Positions 423-16,028 of a DNA stretch of 37,869 bases are shown in pieces. Position numbers and translations under genes: made by a program. The DNA is from a bacterium (GTDB lineage: Bacteria; Hinthialibacterota; Hinthialibacteria; OLB16): contig JAJVIK010000008.1 of assembly GCA_022072055.1 (NCBI GenBank), positions 104,111-141,979 on the forward strand, in the 5' to 3' direction. The notes under the pieces are model-generated. The model searched no databases and was not told the origin of the DNA. It saw nothing but the letters and a program-made list of their open reading frames with translations. Position 1 is the stretch's first letter. Each line of letters opens with the position of its first letter.

Positions 423-1967
423 GTGATCCCAGAACTCCCCCGAACCCCGGACCGCTCGCGCGGAGTTGAGCGCGGGGTCCACACGGCCCTAGTCGCCGCG
501 CTGGTCTTCTTCAGCGGGGTGTTTCTCTATCACGCGCTCCGGATCGTGGCGTACCCCTACACGGTGGATTTCGGCGAGGGTTACCTCCTCAACCACGCGG
601 GAGAGCTTGCGGATCTCCGAAACCCATACCGTTCGCTGGATTCACCTCCCTGGCTGGTGGCCAACTACCCGCCGGTCTTCCCGCTGCTTACCGCCGTGGG
701 GGTCAAAGCCTTCGGTTTCCAATTCCATTTCGGAAGGGCGCTTTCCCTGCTCGGGGTCCTCACCACCGGATTCTGCCTGTATCGGATGACCCGTTTCCAA
801 ACCGAGGACCGTTTCGCCGCGATCGTGGCGGGACTGATGTGGCTGACCGCCTATCCCATTTACAACTGGGGGACCCACCACCGAGTCGATTCCGTGGGGA
901 TCGCGTTTGAGGCGCTGGGCCTCTTATTCCTGTTGAGGCGCGATCACCCCCGCATCGCCACGCTCTTCTTTCTGCTCGCGCTCTACACCCGCCAGACCCT
1001 GTGGGTCGGACCGCTCGCGGGGTACTGTTACCTCCGGCGGGTCGAGGGCGCGCGCGCCGCCGCCAGATGGTTCGGGGAGCTGCTCTTGATCGGGGGGGCG
1101 ATCTTCCTCCTGCTCACGCTCGCCACCGGGGGCGAGTTCTATCGCCACCTTGTCTCCTACAATGTCAATCGCTTCTATTGGAAAGATGTGTGGGTGATGT
1201 TTCACAACGCCGTGATGCACTTCATGATGATCCCGATGGCGCTGTTCTTCTGGCATCTCCTGCGCGCCATCGGCACGGGACGCTGGGACCTTGCCGCTCT
1301 TTGCGTTCCCTTTGCCTTCGGCACATTCCTGCTCGTGGGCAAGGTCGGTTCGGCCACAAATTACCTCTTTGAAATGACGATGGTGGCCTGCTGGGTGACC
1401 GGGCTTACCCTGGCCGAGATTCGCCACACCACGCCGACCCTTCACCCGCTGCGTCCGGTTCTCCCGATTCTCCTGACTCTGGGGGCCTCATTTCCCACTC
1501 ACTTGCCCCATTTCTATGGGGAGTGGAAGATCTTTGACTGGGGGGGGACACCGGGGCGGACCTCCGGCGATCTGACCGGAACCTTGGTGAGTCGACTCAG
1601 GCAGATCCCCGAGCCGATCTTCAGCCAGGATGCCGGAGTGGCGCTGCTCTCCGGACACAAGCTGGTGTGGGACCCGTTCATCATGACCCAGCTCACCCAA
1701 GAAGGGCGTTTCGACCCCGAACCGTTCCACAAGATGATCCGCGCCAAGGAATTCAACGCCTTGGTGCTTCCGTTCGACACCGGACTAGGGCCGAACGCCT
1801 GGAAGGACACCGGCTGGTGGAGCCAATTCACCGAAGAGGTCGCTGCGGAAATCGACAAGGCCTATCGGGCGATCCCGGCCTCCCCCTATGATCCCAGAAC
1901 CCAGGACCCCCGCCTGCGGGGATATTTTTCCCCCTTTGGGACCAATTACTTGTATCTCAAGCGTTGA
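423..1967 (+). CDS. GT39/ArnT-like integral membrane glycosyltransferase (GT-C fold)
   Basis: A 514-residue polytopic membrane protein of the GT-C type, which transfers sugars from polyprenyl-phosphate donors on the outer face of the inner membrane. Visible features are a first membrane helix at about residues 22-42, then a first periplasmic loop with the acidic DFGEG motif (residues ~50-54) in the place of the catalytic Asp/Glu of GT39 enzymes, an N-P-Y and YPPVFPLL segment, and about ten further hydrophobic helices up to residue ~360. The last ~150 residues are soluble. The start is GTG at 423 with no strong ribosome site; a start slightly downstream is possible. It ends 6 bases before the convergent GT87-like gene. 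Acceptor and sugar cannot be told from sequence. Confidence 0.7.
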   Translation: MIPELPRTPDRSRGVERGVHTALVAALVFFSGVFLYHALRIVAYPYTVDFGEGYLLNHAGELADLRNPYRSLDSPPWLVANYPPVFPLLTAVGVKAFGFQFHFGRALSLLGVLTTGFCLYRMTRFQTEDRFAAIVAGLMWLTAYPIYNWGTHHRVDSVGIAFEALGLLFLLRRDHPRIATLFFLLALYTRQTLWVGPLAGYCYLRRVEGARAAARWFGELLLIGGAIFLLLTLATGGEFYRHLVSYNVNRFYWKDVWVMFHNAVMHFMMIPMALFFWHLLRAIGTGRWDLAALCVPFAFGTFLLVGKVGSATNYLFEMTMVACWVTGLTLAEIRHTTPTLHPLRPVLPILLTLGASFPTHLPHFYGEWKIFDWGGTPGRTSGDLTGTLVSRLRQIPEPIFSQDAGVALLSGHKLVWDPFIMTQLTQEGRFDPEPFHKMIRAKEFNALVLPFDTGLGPNAWKDTGWWSQFTEEVAAEIDKAYRAIPASPYDPRTQDPRLRGYFSPFGTNYLYLKR

Positions 1968-1973
1968 GTCCCA

Positions 1974-3341
1974 TCACCACTCCCCGCTCGGAACTCGCCG
2001 TTCCTGGGTTCGAGCCTGCCACAGACACATTCCGAAAAGCGCCAGCACCGGCGGCAAGGAGGCGTTCAGATACAGCATGCTCAAACCCTTCAAGTGAGCC
2101 GGGTTGAACCACAGGAACCACCAATTCGCCCACACCCAACAGATCGCCACCACCGCCCTGAGGCCATCCCCGACTCCCGGATGCGACAGGCGCGCAACAA
2201 GCGTGACCCAGGCCGGGATCGCAAGCGCCAGATAGTGGTCCCAAAACAGGCTGGGGATCAGCAGCATCCCAAACACCCACGCCGAGAGCTCCATCTCGGG
2301 ATCCTCATCCCGCCGCCGAACCCGGCAGCACGCCAGGCACAATCCCAGCACCCCAAGCGCCCACAGCGCGCACAGCCAGTAAGCCCCCACGCCGAGGTTG
2401 AGCCAGGGGGTGGTCTTGGGGTTCTCCGCGAACAGTCGGTAGATCAACGCCGGAACACCTATGTTTCCGGGATCGACATGGAACGAGGCCCCCTGATCAC
2501 TCCAGGTCGAGGAGCCGTAAGCCATGTCCCCGAGCACATCGTAATAAGCAAAGTAGGGTCCCAATCCGTGGATTACCCCCGGCCCCAGCACACACACAGC
2601 CACGGTGATCAACGCCGCGACCAAGGCGGTCCATTCCCGTTTCCAGGCGAGCCAAAGAACCAGAAAGGCGGGCTGGACCTTGACCAGGGCGGCGAATCCC
2701 AAGACCGCGCCGGCTATCCCTTTGCGCCCGTTCCGCCACAGCGCGAAGACCACGCTGAGCAAGAACAGGAGCACATGGTTCAGTTGACCGGCGGTGACGG
2801 ACCGGAACAGAGGAAATGAAAAGGCGACCGAGGCGACCAGGAAGCAGGTCCACCCCAACGAAGGGCGCCCGCCCGGACCGTTGATGAATAACAGCAGGGA
2901 CAGCACGAGCAGGAGTTGGCTTCCCCAGAACCAGAGCCACTTGGCGGTGTCATAGGAGAGCATTCCGAGCCAGCCGAACAAGTATCCGGTGAATGGCGGA
3001 TAGACATACGGGTTGAGATAGGCCATGTCGGGATGAGGCGCTGAGGGGTTTTCCGGATTGGGAACCTCCAGCGCGGCCCGCCGAAGGTTCTCGTAGGGAT
3101 ACGGGTCCTCACCGGCGAGAAGCAGGCGGCCGCCGAGATACAGATGCTTGAGATCGTTGGCGTGATAGGTTTGGCGGGCAGGGTCACCCGCCCCCTCCAG
3201 CGGCAAAAGGACCTGCTGGTTCAGGAAGACCGCCGCGAGGACCGCGAGAGCCACCATCCAGATCTGGCGTTGTCCCGGTCCTCCCTGAAAAGGCAAGTCG
3301 CGCTCCCCAAATGCGGCGTTTACTGATACGGATCCAGCCAA
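1974..3341 (-). CDS. GT87-like (DUF2029) integral membrane glycosyltransferase
   Basis: A polytopic membrane protein of up to 455 residues, resembling the GT87/DUF2029 family of polyprenol-phosphate-mannose-dependent mannosyltransferases. The first helix is followed by an extracytoplasmic loop with NDLKHLYLGGRLLLAGEDPY, the family-type Asp-containing loop, and by YLNPYVYPPF. About nine more helices follow. The start is unclear: TTG at 3341 overlaps the end of the upstream isomerase gene by 22 bases; a TTG at 3293 has a better-placed GGGGAG six bases upstream; an ATG lies at 3257 directly before the first helix. I keep the longest frame. It lies directly downstream of the isomerase gene and is probably co-transcribed with it. 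The sugar and acceptor are unknown. Confidence 0.7.
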   Translation of the reverse strand: MAGSVSVNAAFGERDLPFQGGPGQRQIWMVALAVLAAVFLNQQVLLPLEGAGDPARQTYHANDLKHLYLGGRLLLAGEDPYPYENLRRAALEVPNPENPSAPHPDMAYLNPYVYPPFTGYLFGWLGMLSYDTAKWLWFWGSQLLLVLSLLLFINGPGGRPSLGWTCFLVASVAFSFPLFRSVTAGQLNHVLLFLLSVVFALWRNGRKGIAGAVLGFAALVKVQPAFLVLWLAWKREWTALVAALITVAVCVLGPGVIHGLGPYFAYYDVLGDMAYGSSTWSDQGASFHVDPGNIGVPALIYRLFAENPKTTPWLNLGVGAYWLCALWALGVLGLCLACCRVRRRDEDPEMELSAWVFGMLLIPSLFWDHYLALAIPAWVTLVARLSHPGVGDGLRAVVAICWVWANWWFLWFNPAHLKGLSMLYLNASLPPVLALFGMCLWQARTQERRVPSGEW

Positions 3342-5901: not shown

Positions 5902-7206
5902 CTACTCGTAAAGCGACCAGGCCTCCACGGAGCTGGTCGGGGGGCGTTTGGTGGTGCAAAACCAGATGTCCCCTTCGCCGAGGGCGCGATCCTCCTCCCA
6001 GATCACATGGGTGTCCCCATCCGGGCCCAACGCGAGGCTCGGGCGGGCCCAGTTTCCCGGCTCCGGAGTGACTGGCTGCTCCTCCAGGAGCTGGTCAAGG
6101 AGCGGGTCGTAGACTCCGTACAACACATGCGCCCCGCCGCGCTCATCCACCCAGACAAGATGCACCTTCCCTTGGGAATCGACCTCCAGGTCCGGGGCGT
6201 ACTGCCGCGCGGGATCGGGGGCTATCGAGATTGGCGGATCGAAAGTGGGCTGCCCCGCGCGACGCCGGAAGAGAACCACATCCTCGCCTTGAGGGTTGGA
6301 GTCATCCCCGCACGCAATCCAAACATCTCCGTTGGGCGCGCACACCATGCGCGGCGGATCGAAGAAATCCGTCGCGCCGGGAGCCAGCAGAACCTCCTGA
6401 ACCGTGGTCGCCCCCAGGGGGGCCGCGGCGTAATAGAGATTCACATCGGGTCCGTACCCGCCCGCCCAGGCCAGGTGACGGGTCCCCGATGAATCGACGG
6501 CGAAATCGGGAACCGAATAGGGGATCGTGGGATGGTCGGCGAGGTCGGTGAGACGCATCGCGCTCATCGGTTCGCCCAGGTCAAACACCCCCAACGGGTC
6601 GGAGGTTTTCAGGAAGATGTCGGCGAAATCCCCCGAGGAGAAGTGACTGTCATACCAAGCCAGGGAAAGCCGTCCATCCGGGCCGCGCGCGATCTTGGGG
6701 GTGTAACCGTTGTCCCCAGGGTGCCCGGCGTTGGTGTTTGTAAGGCGGATATCGGTTGAACCGAACGAGCCACCCGGCGGCAGCCTGTCGCCGTAGATTT
6801 CCACATTGTTGATCCAGTTCCCATCCGCAGTGCTGTCGCGGTGGTCATGCCAAACCACCCAGACCGTGTTATCCGCTGTCACCGTGATGGAGGGATGCCG
6901 GCCCCCGACATGATTCGGCCCGACACGCGAATCATCAATGGACACTTGCGGGGAGAAGCCTTCCGTGACAGTCCAGCTGCGGTAATAGACATAGCTGGGG
7001 GTCCCGGGAGTGGTCTGGATCCCCCCGGACCAATAGGTCAGGTGGAGCTTCCCCGCCGAATCCAGCGCCAGGATGCTGTTCGGGGTCCGTGAAAGGTTGT
7101 ATTTCGCCGCGCCGTTGGTGATTCGTTGGGGCGCGGTGAAGTCCGCCGCGAAGGATGCGCCGCAGAGGGCACCCATGAAAAGCAAGGAGAAGGTGCGCTT
7201 ACTCAT
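5902..7206 (-). CDS. Secreted beta-propeller-like (sialidase/BNR-type) protein, second gene of the riboswitch unit
   Basis: A 434-residue exported protein. The N-terminus (MSKRTFSLLFMGALCGASFA) is a clear signal peptide. The rest is a series of about six to seven repeats of the form PDGRLSLAWYD, DSSGTRHLAWAGG, PNGDVWIACGDD, DSQGKVHLVWVDERGG, GPDGDTHVIWEEDRA, each a hydrophobic strand followed by an aromatic, as in BNR/sialidase-type propellers. No catalytic site is recognised, so it may bind rather than cut its ligand. The tail, SVEAWSLYE, is nearly the same as that of the upstream gene's product. Its ATG overlaps the upstream stop (shared 8 bases, ATGAGTAA), so translation is probably coupled and both genes should answer to the upstream cobalamin riboswitch. 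Confidence 0.7.
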   Translation of the reverse strand: MSKRTFSLLFMGALCGASFAADFTAPQRITNGAAKYNLSRTPNSILALDSAGKLHLTYWSGGIQTTPGTPSYVYYRSWTVTEGFSPQVSIDDSRVGPNHVGGRHPSITVTADNTVWVVWHDHRDSTADGNWINNVEIYGDRLPPGGSFGSTDIRLTNTNAGHPGDNGYTPKIARGPDGRLSLAWYDSHFSSGDFADIFLKTSDPLGVFDLGEPMSAMRLTDLADHPTIPYSVPDFAVDSSGTRHLAWAGGYGPDVNLYYAAAPLGATTVQEVLLAPGATDFFDPPRMVCAPNGDVWIACGDDSNPQGEDVVLFRRRAGQPTFDPPISIAPDPARQYAPDLEVDSQGKVHLVWVDERGGAHVLYGVYDPLLDQLLEEQPVTPEPGNWARPSLALGPDGDTHVIWEEDRALGEGDIWFCTTKRPPTSSVEAWSLYE

Positions 7207-8314
7207 GGTAGAGCTCCCAATTTTCCACCGAGGCGGTGATCTCGGGGCGGAGGGAAAGGAGATTCAGTTCGCCGAAGCCGCTCCCGATGACCAAGGTCGC
7301 TCCGCTGGAACCGGAAGATGGCTCGAATTGTCGCAGCTTGGAATTGATCATCAGCCCGGTCAGGAAGAACGAATTCGTGCCGACAAACAGGCTCGGTGTG
7401 GCGGTTTCGATGAGGGGCGCGGCGGGAGCGGGAAAGCTCAGCACCTCCCCACCGCTGGTGACAAAGACATCATCCTCGGCATCGATGACCAAGTCGAAGA
7501 TGCCGTTCGGGAGCTGCTCCCCGGAAACCACTTGGTTGGATTCCCCGGCGCCGATGGACTCATCCTGGTCCACATCTTCAAGCGCGAGGACATTCCCGAC
7601 AATCACGAAAAAGGTGGGATCGATCACATTCGCGGCCCCCACCAACAGGTTCCCGGCGCTGTCGAAATCAAAGCCCCCGTTGAAATCGAATCCCGTGAAG
7701 AAGGCCCCACCGATGGGGCGGAAATCAGGCGTGCCGAGCGGATCGGCGACCACCAGCAGGTCTCCCTCTCCGCCGCCATCGGCGGTTTGGATAAGGACCG
7801 ACCCGGCGGGAATGCCAGAACTGTTCCCCGGCGGGACCACTCGCGCTTGAGCGCCGCTCCAGCCGAAGAAGCCGGTCAGGATCGGTTCGATCAGTTCCCC
7901 GATCTCTCCCGGGTCGTTGAAATCCCTGTCGGCGTTGAGGTCTTGCGCGAGCAGGATGGTTCGATCCGGCGGTCCTCCGGGCGCGGATGCGTTGTCCACA
8001 AGGGCCAGTTGGGTGGCCGAGAGCACCGCGATCCCGGCGAGGTTTCCGAAGGGTCCATCGGCGACCGTGGTCACCGCTCCGGAGGCGAGGTCGATACGGA
8101 CCAGCTCGGCATCCAAGAAGCTCCCGATGGAGGCGTAGACCGTCAAATCATCGTTCGGATCGGCGGCCAGCGCGCCCGCGAAGGTGCGCGGGAGGGGGAT
8201 CGAATCTCCCGTGTACCCCGAGGGAATGGAGGTGAAGGAAAGGACCTGGGAACAGGCCGGTTCGAGAATCCGGCAACACAGAAGGGAGACAACCAAAGGG
8301 CGGATGACAGACAT
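7199..8314 (-). CDS. Secreted propeller-like protein with Ca-loop motifs, first gene after a cobalamin riboswitch
   Basis: A 371-residue exported protein of unknown function. The ATG at 8314 is chosen because GGAGG lies 7 bases upstream and a signal peptide (MSVIRPLVVSLLCCRILEPACS) follows; the longer frame to 8407 would put basic, low-complexity sequence in front. The body has alternating strands typical of a propeller (AALAADPNDDLTVYASIG, GNLAGIAVLSATQLALVDN, FDFDSAGNLLVGAANV, FDLVIDAEDDVFVTSGG). Two Asp-rich loops, DLNADRDFNDPGE and DVDQDESIGAGE, resemble EF-hand/dockerin-type calcium loops. The tail SVENWELYHE matches that of the next gene. It is the first gene downstream of the B12 riboswitch, which suggests a role in corrinoid capture (inference). 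It could also be an unrelated surface protein whose function happens to need B12-dependent control. Confidence 0.65.
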   Translation of the reverse strand: MSVIRPLVVSLLCCRILEPACSQVLSFTSIPSGYTGDSIPLPRTFAGALAADPNDDLTVYASIGSFLDAELVRIDLASGAVTTVADGPFGNLAGIAVLSATQLALVDNASAPGGPPDRTILLAQDLNADRDFNDPGEIGELIEPILTGFFGWSGAQARVVPPGNSSGIPAGSVLIQTADGGGEGDLLVVADPLGTPDFRPIGGAFFTGFDFNGGFDFDSAGNLLVGAANVIDPTFFVIVGNVLALEDVDQDESIGAGESNQVVSGEQLPNGIFDLVIDAEDDVFVTSGGEVLSFPAPAAPLIETATPSLFVGTNSFFLTGLMINSKLRQFEPSSGSSGATLVIGSGFGELNLLSLRPEITASVENWELYHE

Positions 8315-8359
8315 GGAACAACCTCCGACACCGATTCGCATCGACCTCTTGCGATAGAA

Positions 8360-8396
8360 AAGGCGGCGGGCTGGAGGGCTTGCGGCGCCCCGCCTT
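8360..8396 (-). repeat. GC-rich hairpin in the riboswitch leader
   Basis: On the plus strand AAGGCGGCGGG (8360-8370) faces CCCCGCCTT (8388-8396), pairing with one bulged base. Read on the minus strand the stem is followed by CCTTTTCT. It sits between the intrinsic terminator and the ribosome site of the first propeller gene. It may be a second terminator or a structure that affects translation. Confidence 0.4.
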
Positions 8397-8426
8397 CTTC
8401 GACCCAAGATCGGAGGGGCAAACGAA

Positions 8427-8457: not shown

Positions 8458-8518
8458 CGTGGACTTTCCAAGCAACCCATCCGCCTTCTATCCCCGAAGA
8501 AGTGATTGCGGAAAGCCG

Positions 8519-8672
8519 CCCGGACTCGATATTCTGGCTTGCGGATCACCCTACTCGCCGCGTCTTCTCGGCCTTGCGGCCAATGACATGATGCGGCTTT
8601 CGTCCCCGCTTACAGCGACGGGTTCGCGCCGGCTTTTCACCGGCTTCCCGAGGCCGAGGGGCTGTCTATATG
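8519..8672 (-). promoter_or_regulatory. Cobalamin (B12) riboswitch aptamer
   Basis: Read on the minus strand the conserved core of the cobalamin riboswitch (Rfam RF00174 type) is present in the right order: GGGAAGCCGGTGAAAAGCCGG (8649 down to ~8629), then CGCTGTAAGCGGGGAC (to ~8603), then the B12-box hairpin GTCATTG-gccgcaaggcc-GAGAAGAC (8587-8562; consensus GCCACTG...GGGAAGGC, and the G-T-C/G-A-C pair change is compensated), then GATCCGCAAGCCAG (8547-8534; consensus GACCCGCGAGCCAG). The compensated B12-box change argues that the RNA structure is under selection. A strong promoter starts it and an intrinsic terminator follows. Which corrinoid form is preferred cannot be told. Confidence 0.9.
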
Positions 8673-8678
8673 AGCGAA

Positions 8679-9471: not shown

Positions 9472-10752
9472 CTACTCTTTCACCGGGCGGCGGGTCAGAT
9501 CCCCTTGGCCCTTCTCTCCCTCGCTGGGGTTGAAATCCACCTCCCCCATCTGATCCATTCCATCCGGTCCAATCGAATACAGGAGGAAATCCTCCGGCTC
9601 CTCGAAGTGGAGATAGTGATACTCCGAGCCGAATAGGAACGGGTCGCGGAAGGCTTCCACCGCTTTGGGGTCCTCGAACAATCTGAAGATCTGGTCGGGA
9701 TATCCCCCCTTCGCCTGGAACGCCTCCGCGAGCATCGCGGCAAGATGGTCGAGGTCCTCGTTGGCCTTGCGCAGCCGCTCCTCGTAGGAGAGGGAAGGAT
9801 CGCCCAAATCCTCCGGCTCCTTCGCGATTCCCCCTCCCCCGCGCACCCCCGGATACCCTTCTCCGGCGAGCACAAACAAACCGCCGCGCACCGCCGCGCG
9901 ATAGCGGTCGAGCCGTTCCCGGTCGGCCGCCTCCTGGACCTTCCTCAGCGCTTCCTCCAACAGCCGAGAGGCCTCCTCGTTTTCCGATCGGTCATTCAAT
10001 AGGAGCGCGAGTCGCACCAAGACATGCACCGTTTCCTCATCGGTTGCTCCTTTCACCGAGAGATCCCAGGCTTCCCGGTAGCGCCGGATGGCGTCCTCGA
10101 AGCGTGAGGTTTCATAGGCCAGGTCCCCACGTTTGCGCGCGATCCCGCGCCGCAGCTTAGTCTCCCCGCTCGCGCCGGCCTTGTAGGCCTGCTCAAGCAG
10201 AGACTCGGCGCGCTTGGCGTCGCTGAGCCGCCGCGCGAGCTCCGCCTCCTCGATGAGCGAGGTGACCGATTTCACTTCGCCCGTCGCAAACTCCACCGTT
10301 TCCCCCCCGCGCAAGTCGGTCTCGAAACCGGCCTCGAGGAATGCCAGCACTCTTTCGCGCTCATCGAGTTCATCCAGAACAGAGACCACCCGTTTCGCCA
10401 AGGGGGCATCCGTCCGGGTGTCCAGGAGCACAAGCGCGGGGACTGATCGGACAGGAAGGCCGGAAACCGCCTCGCGGTTGGTTTCAAGGTTCAGGCAGAC
10501 CTTGCAGAACATCGACAGAATCTCGCGGACTCCCCGCCATCTTCGGAAACGCCCCTCGACCGCCAGGCTGTCCGTGCTCCAGTCGGCCCAGACCAAGATC
10601 AACGCCGGGCGTTCGCCGCCGAGCTGGCAGAGCTCCAGGTCGTCGAGACTGCTCATCCATTCGGGATCCGACGAAAAGGGGCCTTTCCCGTCGGGTGGTT
10701 CACACCAGCAGGGGTTTAGGACACAGAGGAAGAGAAGAGCATGCCAACGCAT
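9472..10752 (-). CDS. Exported thioredoxin-fold / TPR / pseudopilin-like fusion protein
   Basis: A 426-residue protein from the ATG at 10752, chosen because a signal-like hydrophobic N-terminus (MRWHALLFLCVLNPCWC) follows; the frame continues upstream only as overlap with the next gene. Residues ~45-145 have a thioredoxin fold (LILVWADWSTDS, then VRSVPALVLLD with the cis-Pro), but the WCxxC active site is replaced by WSTDS. A CKVC pair at 83-86 lies in the next strand, not the active position. Residues ~165-285 are TPR-type helix pairs. Residues ~325-410 resemble the C-terminal domain of GspG pseudopilins: a helix (LDHLAAMLAEAFQAKGGYP), then RDPFLFGSEYHY and FLLYSIGPDGMDQMG. It lies 65 bases downstream of the PA14-glycosyltransferase gene and is probably co-transcribed. 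Confidence 0.65.
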   Translation of the reverse strand: MRWHALLFLCVLNPCWCEPPDGKGPFSSDPEWMSSLDDLELCQLGGERPALILVWADWSTDSLAVEGRFRRWRGVREILSMFCKVCLNLETNREAVSGLPVRSVPALVLLDTRTDAPLAKRVVSVLDELDERERVLAFLEAGFETDLRGGETVEFATGEVKSVTSLIEEAELARRLSDAKRAESLLEQAYKAGASGETKLRRGIARKRGDLAYETSRFEDAIRRYREAWDLSVKGATDEETVHVLVRLALLLNDRSENEEASRLLEEALRKVQEAADRERLDRYRAAVRGGLFVLAGEGYPGVRGGGGIAKEPEDLGDPSLSYEERLRKANEDLDHLAAMLAEAFQAKGGYPDQIFRLFEDPKAVEAFRDPFLFGSEYHYLHFEEPEDFLLYSIGPDGMDQMGEVDFNPSEGEKGQGDLTRRPVKE

Positions 10753-10817
10753 GGAACCCACATCCGCATTCGTTTGGGCGGCTGATTGGGGCCACCCCCG
10801 AAGAGGTGTTCCATCCC

Positions 10818-13802
10818 TTAATAGGATAGCGCGCTTTGTGGGATCAGCGCGCGCCCTTGGCCGGGAACCTGCCAGTAAAGGCGGAGCGCTTCGCCGCCGC
10901 CGATGTTGTCGGTGTAACGCACTCGGATCGGATGCTTGCCCTTGGTGAGTTCGATGGTCCCCGGAGCCGGGCGATTCTTCTGGTTCCCGCCGCTTGGGGA
11001 TTCCACCACCTTCTTCCCATCGATCTCCACCAGTGCGTAGTCCCAGGCCTCGGTGACAATCGTGTAATTGCCCTCCTTGGGACATTCCAGAAAACCGTTC
11101 CATTCCACGCTCATTGGGAACCGGTAAGGGCCATTCCAACGGTAGTTGATGTACGGGTCAACCCAGACGAAAAGCGGCTTTCCGTCCCAGCGCCGCGCGC
11201 CATGCCAGAATGTCATCCTCAGACCGTTCGGAATTATCCCTCGATCATGGAAGCGCTCGCCGCGGAACTCCTCCCAATTCGAAGACCCGGGGGGCTGATA
11301 AAACGCTCGGGTGGGTTGAGCGTAGGTCTCGCTCTCCAGAATGAACTCCACTTGGTGCGCTCCGGCGAGGAGCTCCTTGCGGGCCTCAAGCGCCCCCGCG
11401 CCGGGTGTGGCCTCCAGAATCACCTCCGAATCCACCAGCAAGGTGAAATGGTCGATGGTTTCAGCCCGAAACCCGTACGATCCCTCTTGCCCCTCCGGAA
11501 TCACCCAGAGCGCCTTCCCCCTCACCTTGAAAGGGGCCTGGAGCGGCTGCTCCTCTGGGGTGAGCGAAAGCGACGGGTAGGTGATCGGCTCCCCTTGAGG
11601 GGTGTCGCTCCCATCCCGGGAGAGTGTTTGAACGGAGAAGCCGCGATGGCGCTTCTTGACCTCGACCGGCACACGGTAGGCCGCGAAAATCTTGTTGCCG
11701 AAGGGATCCACCGGATCCTCGCGGGGAACCTCAGGGTAAAGCCATTCGATCCAGACATTCTTGTCGGGACGGTTCCAAGGCTCCATCACGATATAGAGGG
11801 CGTCCTCATCATCCGCGTAACGCGCCGGAAGCTCCTGCTGGAGGTAGAGGTGGTTGCGCCAGATTCCGGGCGGGTTCAGGAGTCGTAGCGCGTTGTGGCC
11901 GTTGGCGTCGCTGACCGCGTAAAACTTCCCCTTCTGGTTGTTCACATAGTGCGCCATGTCCACGAACTTGGCGTCGAAGTGGATATAGGGATCGATCTTG
12001 GTGACCTGATCCTTGAAATAAAGGTTGTATTCCCCGCGCCAATAAACAATGGCGATAAGGGCCATCAAGGTGTAACCGCACCAGCGCAGCGGCTCGGCGA
12101 GCCAGCGCCTTCCGGGGAGCCAGTCTTCGGCCAGAGTCATCACCGCAAGCCCGACCTCCCGTAGCGCCACCGCGCTCCAGATGGCGATCACCGGCATGAC
12201 GCACAAGGTCCGCAGCGCTTGCGGGGCCTCGATCGAAAGCACCCCGGGCAGCAGCATGGCCACAAACCAACCGAGCGAGAAGAGCCCAAGGCGGCTCCGC
12301 CAGCACGCCAACGCCCAGGCCGCGCCGAGTGGGAAAAGCGCCGCGAGCAGCGGGTGCACCATCGGGGCGAAGGGGTGATTGTGACGCGGGTTGGAGTCGC
12401 CTCGGACATGGAACATGCGCAGCGTCGTGTACAGCGTGTCCCTCACCCGCTCCCAGTTGGGACGCAGCGGTTCGTTCGAGTTCACGATACTGACCATGTT
12501 GAGCCGTTCCGAGAACGCCTCCGGGTGGGTGCGACGGTATTCCAGCATCTCGCTCGCGCACCAATAGGCCGAGGCGAGAAACAGGATAAGTCCGATCACG
12601 TTCCAGCGCAGCAGATGGCGTTGCAGGACCCAGCGCACGGCGAGAAAACCGGCAAGCACCCCAGGCAAGAGATACAGCGGCTTGTAAGAATAGACCCCCA
12701 GCCCGAAGCAGTATCCCGCGAGGAGCCACATCGGCGCGGTTTTGAGCAGATGCCATCCCCAAGGGATCAAGGGGACACGCTCCTCCTGGGATTCGGCCTG
12801 GACCTTGGGCGGGGAGTCTTTGTGCTTGAAGGCCAGAAAGAAGAAGACTCCGGTAAGGGTGATGATCAAGGGGGCCTCGATGGCGTCATAGGCCACGCGC
12901 GAAAAGTTCACATGCCAACGCATGGCCGCGAGAAACGCCGCGCCCAAGAACGCCGTGGGAACATCGCAGAGGACCCGCAGAAGGAAGTACAGCGCGAGCA
13001 CGCCCAATAGGCCGGCGATCATGGTCGGAAGGCGGATGGTGAAGATGGAGGTTCCGAACCACTTCATCGCGAGCGCGATCTGATACATGTGCATGGTGGC
13101 CTTGCCGAATCCCTGTGTTGTGAAGACCGGGACCGCCATGTCCTCGCGGTGACGCTCCATGCCGCGAATTTCGGCGCGGAGACGGTCGATTTCAGCCTGC
13201 AGGTTCCGTTTGGCCGCCTCCTCGGTCGCCGCGGCTTGTTCATCGAGCTTGGCGGCGAGCTGCTCTTTCCGCTCGTGGATCTGTTGGTCGAGCTCGGCGA
13301 TCCGCTTCTGAGTTTCCGGCTCCCATTCGCGGATGAAATCACGCCCGATCATGGCGTTGGTGCTTTCGTCATAGTGCAACCCGAAGGGGTATATGTTGCC
13401 CAGGTGGAAGCGCATGAAGCCCGCCACCAACAGGAGAATGACCACCAGTCCCGCCTCAACCGTTGGCGGGACCCGGATCCGGCGCTTCGAGGGCATGTCG
13501 CGGACCAGGAGGACCCCGAGGGCGAACAGCGCCATCGCCGCCAACAGGTTTCTGTAGCCCGGCCAGGAGCCGTTGTAGTCCACCCAGGGAAAGCGATCCG
13601 GGAAACGAGGGTCGAGGAAGGGTTTGAGGGTGATCTCGGTCCCCGGGCGCAGATCCTTGGTTCCAAAACCGATCAGATTCGCCAGGGAGAGCTCGGCATA
13701 AGCGGCCCACACAAGCGCCGCGAGCAGGACCGGAAGCGCCAGTAAGAGCCGCCACTTTCTAGGAATAAGCGGGGCTGCCTGTTCGGGTGATTGCGGCGGC
13801 AT
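10818..13802 (-). CDS. PMT/GT39-like membrane glycosyltransferase with inserted coiled coil and C-terminal PA14 domain
   Basis: A 994-residue protein combining a GT-C glycosyltransferase with a carbohydrate-binding-type domain. Residues 18-38, 85-100 and 115-131 are membrane helices; the first large loop holds the catalytic-type Asp145-Glu146 (FGLHYDESTNAMIGRDF). Immediately after, residues ~158-222 are a charged coiled coil (KRIAELDQQIHERKEQ...AEIDRLRAEIRGMERHRED) where normal family members have a short loop. The remaining helices run to ~600. Residues ~840-994 form a PA14 domain (GIIPNGLRMTFWHG, then GNYTIVTEAWDYALVEIDGK and GKHPIRVRYTDNIGGGEALRLYW), facing the periplasm. The membrane enzyme would transfer a polyprenyl-linked sugar; PA14 may hold the acceptor glycan. 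The start ATG at 13802 has only a weak ribosome site. Confidence 0.75.
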   Translation of the reverse strand: MPPQSPEQAAPLIPRKWRLLLALPVLLAALVWAAYAELSLANLIGFGTKDLRPGTEITLKPFLDPRFPDRFPWVDYNGSWPGYRNLLAAMALFALGVLLVRDMPSKRRIRVPPTVEAGLVVILLLVAGFMRFHLGNIYPFGLHYDESTNAMIGRDFIREWEPETQKRIAELDQQIHERKEQLAAKLDEQAAATEEAAKRNLQAEIDRLRAEIRGMERHREDMAVPVFTTQGFGKATMHMYQIALAMKWFGTSIFTIRLPTMIAGLLGVLALYFLLRVLCDVPTAFLGAAFLAAMRWHVNFSRVAYDAIEAPLIITLTGVFFFLAFKHKDSPPKVQAESQEERVPLIPWGWHLLKTAPMWLLAGYCFGLGVYSYKPLYLLPGVLAGFLAVRWVLQRHLLRWNVIGLILFLASAYWCASEMLEYRRTHPEAFSERLNMVSIVNSNEPLRPNWERVRDTLYTTLRMFHVRGDSNPRHNHPFAPMVHPLLAALFPLGAAWALACWRSRLGLFSLGWFVAMLLPGVLSIEAPQALRTLCVMPVIAIWSAVALREVGLAVMTLAEDWLPGRRWLAEPLRWCGYTLMALIAIVYWRGEYNLYFKDQVTKIDPYIHFDAKFVDMAHYVNNQKGKFYAVSDANGHNALRLLNPPGIWRNHLYLQQELPARYADDEDALYIVMEPWNRPDKNVWIEWLYPEVPREDPVDPFGNKIFAAYRVPVEVKKRHRGFSVQTLSRDGSDTPQGEPITYPSLSLTPEEQPLQAPFKVRGKALWVIPEGQEGSYGFRAETIDHFTLLVDSEVILEATPGAGALEARKELLAGAHQVEFILESETYAQPTRAFYQPPGSSNWEEFRGERFHDRGIIPNGLRMTFWHGARRWDGKPLFVWVDPYINYRWNGPYRFPMSVEWNGFLECPKEGNYTIVTEAWDYALVEIDGKKVVESPSGGNQKNRPAPGTIELTKGKHPIRVRYTDNIGGGEALRLYWQVPGQGRALIPQSALSY

Positions 13803-14400: not shown

Positions 14401-15135
14401 GTGACCGGCCCGACTGTCTTCGTTTCGGATGTGCATCTCGACCACAAGGTTCCCCACCGGATCGACCGGTTTGAGCGATTCCTTTTCGAGGACCTCCCAA
14501 GCCTCGGGTGCTCGGACCTCTATGTCCTCGGGGACTTGTTCAACATTTGGTACCGGGACCCGCGCCTGGAGGTCCTATTCGGGGCGCGCGTGTTGGAGCT
14601 GCTCAAGCGTTTTGTCGAGACCGGCGGAAGACTGGAGTATGTGGTGGGGAATCGGGACTTTGCGCTCTGTTTTGACCGCTCGCTGCCCCTTCCTTTTCCG
14701 ATCCATCGACGGAAGATCGAGCGAAAGATCGGCAAACGCGCCTTTTACCTGTGTCACGGGGATGATCTCTGTAAGCGTGACTGGGGCTACCGTCTCCTGC
14801 ATGGGGTCATCCGCCAGACCCTCCCGATGGCTCTGTTTCATTCGCTTTCCAGCAATTCCAAGGAGTGGATTGTGGCCCAGCTGATCAACCTGACCCATGA
14901 GGTCACCCGCCGCAAGGCGCTCTGGAAGACCTTGCCGTACTGGCCCTATGTCCACGCTCAGGTGGATCGCGGGGTGGATGTCTTTGTCCAGGGGCATATT
15001 CACCACCGGGCCTGCCGACTTCTGGAGGGGTCCCATCGACGTGGGCGGCATTTCATCCTTCCCAGATGGTTCGACCGCGCTTGCGGCCTGCTCTATGATC
15101 CGGAGGGCGATGGTTTCGCGTTTTTCGACCGATGA
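14401..15135 (+). CDS. LpxH-like UDP-2,3-diacylglucosamine pyrophosphatase (metallophosphoesterase)
   Basis: A 244-residue calcineurin-like phosphoesterase close to LpxH, which in lipid A synthesis splits UDP-2,3-diacylglucosamine into lipid X and UMP at the inner membrane. All metal-ligand blocks are present: SDVHLD (Asp10, His12), LGDLFN (Asp45), GNRDF (Asn84), CHGDDLC (His119) and GHIHH (His199, His201). The GNRDF and HGDxLC blocks and an NSKE segment (~152-155) are LpxH-typical. The block usually written GDLFE/D has Asn here. The start is GTG. Its stop overlaps the UbiA-like start by four bases (ATGA), so the two are translated together. No other lipid A gene is in the window, so a different phosphorylated lipid substrate is possible. 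Confidence 0.7.
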   Translation: MTGPTVFVSDVHLDHKVPHRIDRFERFLFEDLPSLGCSDLYVLGDLFNIWYRDPRLEVLFGARVLELLKRFVETGGRLEYVVGNRDFALCFDRSLPLPFPIHRRKIERKIGKRAFYLCHGDDLCKRDWGYRLLHGVIRQTLPMALFHSLSSNSKEWIVAQLINLTHEVTRRKALWKTLPYWPYVHAQVDRGVDVFVQGHIHHRACRLLEGSHRRGRHFILPRWFDRACGLLYDPEGDGFAFFDR

Positions 15136-16028
15136 AGGTGAAAGCCTATGTGGAGCTGGCGCGTCCGTTCACCTTACTCGCCCCTTCCGTCGGGTTTCTG
15201 AGCGGGGGCGTGGTGGCCTGGATGGCGCGTCGCCCGGAGGGGTTGTCCGGCGCGGCGGCCACCCTGGAGGTGCTCCTGGGGGCCCTGGCGGCGGCCTGCC
15301 TGAACGCCGCCTCGAACGCCATCAACCAGATCTATGACCTGGAAATCGACCGGATCAACAAGCCGAAGCGGCCTCTGCCCTCGGGGGCGCTGAGTCTCGG
15401 CGAAGCCTGGGTTTTCACGGTCGTCGCGTATGTTTTCACTTTCGCCCTGGCGGCCTTGGTGAACCTCGATTTCCTTGGGATTGTGGCGGTCACCACCTTC
15501 ATCACCTACGCCTACTCCGGGCCCCCATTTCGGACCAAGCGGTTCGGCATCCTCGCCAATGTCACCATCGCCATCCCGCGCGGGTGTCTGTTGGTGGTTG
15601 CGGGGTGGTCGGCGGTGGCCTCACCGGCTGATCTTGAGCCTTGGTTGCTCGGGACTGTCATGGGACTTTACATTCTGGGGGCGGCAACCACCAAGGACTT
15701 CTCCGATATGGAAGGTGACCAAAAGTACGGCTGCATCACCTTGCCGATCCGCTATGGGATTCGCGCCAGCGCTTGGATGATCGCCCCCTTCTTTGTGCTC
15801 CCCTTCCTCGTGCTCGCCGCGCTAGCGGGTATGGGTCGTCTTTCAGGCAACCCTCTGTTCTTGATCGGTCTTGGCTTGGCGCTTTCAGCCTGGGGGGCGT
15901 TTATTGCCTACTTGATCCTGCGTCGCCCGGAGGACCTTGCGGTCGAGGCGAATCATGTTTCCTGGAAGCACATGTACCTCTTGATGCTGGTGGCTCAGAT
16001 GGGCATGGCGATTGCGTATTTGCTCTGA
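15132..16028 (+). CDS. UbiA-family prenyltransferase
   Basis: A 298-residue membrane prenyltransferase with about eight to nine helices. The first Mg-diphosphate motif is NQIYDLEID (Asn65, Asp69, Asp73), followed by RINKPKRPLPSG; the second is KDFSDMEGD (Asp189, Asp192, Asp196). These bind the prenyl diphosphate. The family includes enzymes for quinones, heme O, chlorophyll and archaeal-type ether lipids (DGGGP synthase); the pattern here fits the broad quinone/DGGGP-like group, but the acceptor cannot be fixed from sequence. The ATG overlaps the LpxH-like stop by four bases. A hairpin at 16044-16064 follows the stop. Confidence 0.85.
   Translation: MKVKAYVELARPFTLLAPSVGFLSGGVVAWMARRPEGLSGAAATLEVLLGALAAACLNAASNAINQIYDLEIDRINKPKRPLPSGALSLGEAWVFTVVAYVFTFALAALVNLDFLGIVAVTTFITYAYSGPPFRTKRFGILANVTIAIPRGCLLVVAGWSAVASPADLEPWLLGTVMGLYILGAATTKDFSDMEGDQKYGCITLPIRYGIRASAWMIAPFFVLPFLVLAALAGMGRLSGNPLFLIGLGLALSAWGAFIAYLILRRPEDLAVEANHVSWKHMYLLMLVAQMGMAIAYLL

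Follow-up and report, generated by a model that had tools for sequence, protein, structure and literature searches.

A predicted helical hairpin beside the catalytic loop of a PMT_2-type GT-C glycosyltransferase with a PA14 tail in Hinthialibacterota

GT-C enzymes build the glycans of the bacterial envelope, and what determines their choice of acceptor is often unclear. A 37,869-nucleotide stretch of DNA from a member of Hinthialibacterota (the whole stretch is called the window below; home genome 32 contigs, 5.86 Mb) encodes a protein of 994 residues in which a highly charged segment has been inserted close to the presumed catalytic motif of such an enzyme and a PA14 domain forms the C-terminus. 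The locus raises two questions, namely what kind of enzyme this is and what the inserted segment might do for it. The gene begins with ATG, its frame is open throughout, and its GC content by codon position (0.63/0.43/0.79) has the pattern of the neighbouring likely genes. The nearest named relative is Candidatus Hinthialibacteria bacterium OLB16 (L033, 59% by tblastn), and its gene is the same as that found with equal score in genome G001. That genome falls in the same family under a different genus, and its protein is 61% identical to ours. Because the frame is open and the G001 protein also carries the insertion, a sequencing or gene-calling artefact was rejected as its origin. The features are collected in Table 1.

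Table 1. Features of the glycosyltransferase gene and its neighbours, in window positions; residues refer to the 994-residue protein
Feature	Residues	Position	Strand	Basis
GT-C glycosyltransferase gene with predicted helical hairpin and PA14 tail	994 aa	10818..13802	(-)	ORF list, Pfam
GT-C part and the mixed periplasmic segment after it	110-717	11652..13475	(-)	fold search; PMT_2
DE motif, presumed catalytic	145-146	13365..13370	(-)	invariant in 15/15; role from the available parts of PMC12331936 and PMC12041299
First juxtamembrane helix	144-159	13326..13373	(-)	model
Inserted antiparallel helical hairpin (predicted)	162-222	13137..13319	(-)	model, pLDDT about 81-94; 13/15 aligned proteins without insertion
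GDxNxRHN-like family motif	468-475	12378..12401	(-)	15-row alignment
First beta-sandwich, putatively degenerate PA14-like	722-836	11295..11639	(-)	model strands
PA14 domain	856-994	10821..11237	(-)	Pfam, 53.8 bits; MpPA14 fold match
Secreted TPR-type protein gene, next gene, possibly co-transcribed with the glycosyltransferase		9472..10761	(-)	ORF and Pfam scans
LpxH-like metallophosphoesterase, divergent, conserved neighbour		14401..15135	(+)	family matches, comparison with G001
UbiA-family prenyltransferase, conserved neighbour		15132..16028	(+)	family matches, comparison with G001

An earlier note, made from the sequence, had called the protein a GT-C glycosyltransferase, and family match, structure model and fold search all uphold that assignment. 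Residues 235-327 match the Pfam family PMT_2 with 36.5 bits against a cut-off of 26.1. The Pfam family of GT39 PMT proper (PF02366) has no match to the protein at E up to 1, and from the STT3/AglB family TIGR04154 reaches 16.3 bits against a cut-off of 450 and PF02516 finds no match. An AlphaFold2 model built from 12 aligned sequences (mean pLDDT 80.8, pTM 0.76) was searched against known structures. Its membrane part takes the GT-C membrane fold, at Z 27-31 against AglB (Z 30.6), ArnT (Z 28.1) and Pmt4 (Z 27.3), and OST is also among the matches. The first juxtamembrane helix of GT-CA enzymes bears a conserved Asp at its tip according to the available part of PMC12041299, and the part of PMC12331936 at hand places the DE of MtPMT upstream of the first horizontal helix, HH1. 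In our protein, D145-E146 lies in the first periplasmic loop, on the predicted juxtamembrane helix that starts at residue 144, which is the placement of the Asp expected of GT-C enzymes. Farther along, G468 of the GDxNxRHN-like motif is invariant in the 15-row alignment, and D469, R473, H474 and N475 are nearly so.

Among characterized enzymes, the aminoarabinose transferase ArnT (5EZM/5F15), itself a GT-CA enzyme, matches residues 112-714 (449 residues, rmsd 5.0), and its first periplasmic loop likewise holds an acidic motif, but it has about 540 residues and no PA14 domain. Pmt1/2, Pmt4 and MtPMT match through the membrane part, residues about 105-604, at Z 25-27; protein O-mannosyltransferases differ in belonging to the Pfam family PMT that finds no match here. 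The mycobacterial arabinosyltransferases EmbB and AftB likewise join a GT-C core to a periplasmic C-terminal domain, a jelly-roll in EmbB (PMC7305291, PMC12041299), although their structural match is lower (Z 16-19), and the accessible parts of these two papers do not describe that domain as PA14 or mention a hairpin after the first juxtamembrane helix.

The insertion is 61 residues long and consists to 44% of D, E, K and R, within two points of the most charged 61-residue window of the protein (46%, at residue 161). A charged coiled coil directly after the DE motif had been proposed; the charge is real, but the segment starts 16 residues past DE, behind the juxtamembrane helix. The model predicts it as two helices of a single chain, residues 162-191 and 195-222, and the model of the G001 protein has helices at the equivalent place, residues 166-191 and 199-218, with pLDDT about 83-96. 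From the helix-turn-helix order in both models we infer a hairpin in which each helix packs against the other. The segment is thus helical by model, but the coiled-coil label is weakly supported by the sequence, where a match to the Pfam coil family FlxA (E 0.0031) lies below the cut-off. A crude test for helical periodicity gave p 0.14 for our protein and a marginal p 0.04 for the G001 relative, values that do not establish a heptad coil of the classical type.

Of 15 aligned proteins, only ours and that of G001 possess the insertion, and the 13 without it include L045, which comes from the same phylum. The expectation that near relatives would keep it thus holds for the nearest one and fails beyond. 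The same is seen in the distance from DE to the WH motif, which was measured in 64 of the 75 family ORF rows, the other 11 being mostly truncated loci, in a set where some proteins are present twice as truncated copies: 61 rows fall at 84-98 residues, G001 has 143, and our protein, in two rows, has 151. With two carriers among the aligned proteins and three outlying rows, the idea that the family as a whole carries the insertion was discarded. Among 14 genomes of the phylum, in which a subset of the paralogues was read, a close homologue of nearly full length occurs in two, each time with the insertion. The idea that paralogues of the home genome share it was not borne out in the open frames of the matching home-genome stretches (L078-L081), where no charged coil was seen by eye; the loop of L079 is longer but different.

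In a tree of the GT core, the two carriers group with support of 100/100, and L045 is their neighbour with weak support (80/74). The simplest reading is that the insertion was gained on the branch leading to the two carriers, and a loss in L045 is also compatible with the tree. With a GC3 of 0.77, hardly different from the 0.79 of the remaining gene, the insertion bears no sign of recent foreign DNA. No other part of the protein is as poorly conserved between the carriers: 14 of 53 positions are identical (26%) and there are 8 gap positions, whereas identity reaches 89 of 108 (82%) immediately downstream and 92 of 139 across the PA14 region. Such divergence, in a feature with only two carriers, is what would be expected if a surface loop that tolerates change had expanded neutrally, or nearly so, and the added segment had no function. 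We nevertheless consider this explanation rather unlikely, as a two-helix hairpin is predicted in both carriers despite their divergent sequences and the frame stays open with a GC3 like that of the gene. The predicted hairpin structure seems to have been kept while its sequence drifted.

The C-terminal PA14 domain announced by the earlier note is confirmed by sequence and by fold. Residues 898-989 match the Pfam family with 53.8 bits against a cut-off of 24, and in a check set beforehand residues 856-994 fold as PA14, aligning with the PA14 lectin MpPA14 at Z 15.6 and rmsd 2.2 over 134 residues. The beta-sandwich ahead of it may, judging from the model, be a degenerate PA14 domain. The whole of residues 717-994 matches 6qe7 at Z 20.4 but with an rmsd of 15.7, which indicates that each domain fits better alone than both do together and that the two are arranged differently; 6qdi, a like-named companion of 6qe7, has two PA14-like stretches by sequence. 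That the tail is a true lectin gripping the glycan acceptor would agree with the sugar-bound state of MpPA14 in the fold match, with the retention of PA14 in 15/15 aligned proteins, and with the C-terminal jelly-roll that the available text of PMC7305291 gives EmbB as well. PA14 lectins, however, bind calcium and sugar through two consecutive Asp residues (DcisD), as stated in the part of PMC8092209 at hand, and the tail has Trp920-Asp921 at that position; the Asp-Asp pair is found in only two of the 15 aligned rows, L037 (a plus-strand copy) and L048. Because the pair is missing, acceptor binding by the tail is uncertain, a possible role that the sequence leaves unsupported, and the lectin reading is doubtful.

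The combination of a PMT_2-type glycosyltransferase with PA14, for which the earlier note had suggested an architecture search, occurs in 15 of 15 aligned proteins (E 0.001 for PMT_2); GT39 PMT (PF02366), which has no match in ours, matches three of them. The set was picked for matching the 994-residue protein, so this count gives no rate for PMT_2 enzymes at large. Its members come from Hinthialibacterota, FCPU426 and Chloroflexota, among others. NHL repeats are present in three, and L035, L036 and L038, all from Anaerolineae, extend about 250 residues past PA14. In the class of genome G077, all 14 of 14 genomes match our protein, with 4 to 18 matches each, and GT-C and PA14-type proteins are hence numerous there. 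The same PMT2/PA14 pair is listed for OJX39484.1 of Chloroflexi bacterium 44-23 in a table of PMC8756737, a source available in part, and within the open-licence literature the fusion was found only as this entry. The PMT_2-PA14 fusion is accordingly widespread and already in print, and to it the hairpin adds a new but narrow variation.

The neighbourhood was also considered. The 16 kb surrounding the G001 glycosyltransferase gene showed no counterpart of the TPR-type gene. The LpxH-like and UbiA genes adjoin the glycosyltransferase gene in G001 too, and G002, of the same family and 84% complete, keeps the pair with other genes at the glycosyltransferase position and no glycosyltransferase match found in that assembly. 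The pair is therefore not tied to the glycosyltransferase, and inferring its function from these neighbours was set aside as weak. The site in G002 (L109 1668-3866 (-)) is occupied by two adjacent proteins that resemble each other, one of which has a tail rich in Gly, Ser and Tyr. Elsewhere in the window lie two more membrane glycosyltransferases, of PMT_2 and GT87 type (423-1967 (+) and 1974-3341 (-)), and a cobalamin riboswitch (8505-8673 (-), 90.1 bits), with a stem-loop hairpin and T-run seen by eye just after it. Downstream of the riboswitch, 7199-8407 encodes a secreted protein without an assigned family, and 5902-7206 after it has a weak match to the lipoprotein family NF053835, below the cut-off, and is not an obvious B12 gene.

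As to the donor, a GT2 protein related to polyprenyl-phosphate-sugar synthases adjoins the glycosyltransferase gene in three of 15 loci (L037, L039 and L047), a count taken over flanks of differing length and with L039 and L047 near-copies. One of the three has a GtrA/DPMS membrane domain, and the NCBIfam matches of these GT2 proteins all fall below curated cut-offs. Pfam scans of the window ORFs showed no such GT2, and the home genome has one polyprenyl-phosphate-sugar-synthase-like GT2 on another contig, 67% identical to its G002 counterpart.

We favour, with a probability of roughly 0.7, a polyprenyl-phosphate-sugar-dependent periplasmic GT-CA glycosyltransferase with a lineage-specific accessory hairpin arm. 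Such an enzyme would take a sugar off its polyprenyl-phosphate carrier and transfer it to an acceptor beyond the inner membrane, with donor type, direction and activity as we infer them, and the acceptor would most likely be a cell-envelope glycan or glycolipid. The hairpin, a lineage-specific element of the first periplasmic loop that follows immediately on the juxtamembrane helix, would project into the solvent as an arm next to the active site, on its acceptor side, and may touch the protein's own tail or a partner. It would be neither a part of the catalytic machinery nor a dimer coil, and we call it accessory because 13 of the 15 aligned proteins do without it.

A bolder proposal sees in the hairpin, which lies between the helix of the catalytic loop and the transmembrane helix that follows, a docking arm or gate specific to the clade. 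It would link the active site with a partner protein or with the PA14 tail and thereby set the choice of acceptor. We hold this to be improbable, and in the open-licence literature that was searched this way of retuning a GT-C enzyme was not met. Least likely of all is the dimeric enzyme of the earlier note, two copies scaffolded by a coiled coil, since, for all its charged helical sequence and the precedent of GT-C dimers such as EmbB (available text of PMC7305291), the two helices of the insertion are predicted in both carriers to pair with one another in a single chain, and the periodicity of the insertion in our protein is not significant (p 0.14).

Relatives with and without a removable arm near the catalytic Asp would offer a clean way to find out if the choice of acceptor is governed by the first periplasmic loop. 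The locus also draws attention to the PMT_2-PA14 proteins as a widespread, little-studied family that reaches across several poorly known phyla.
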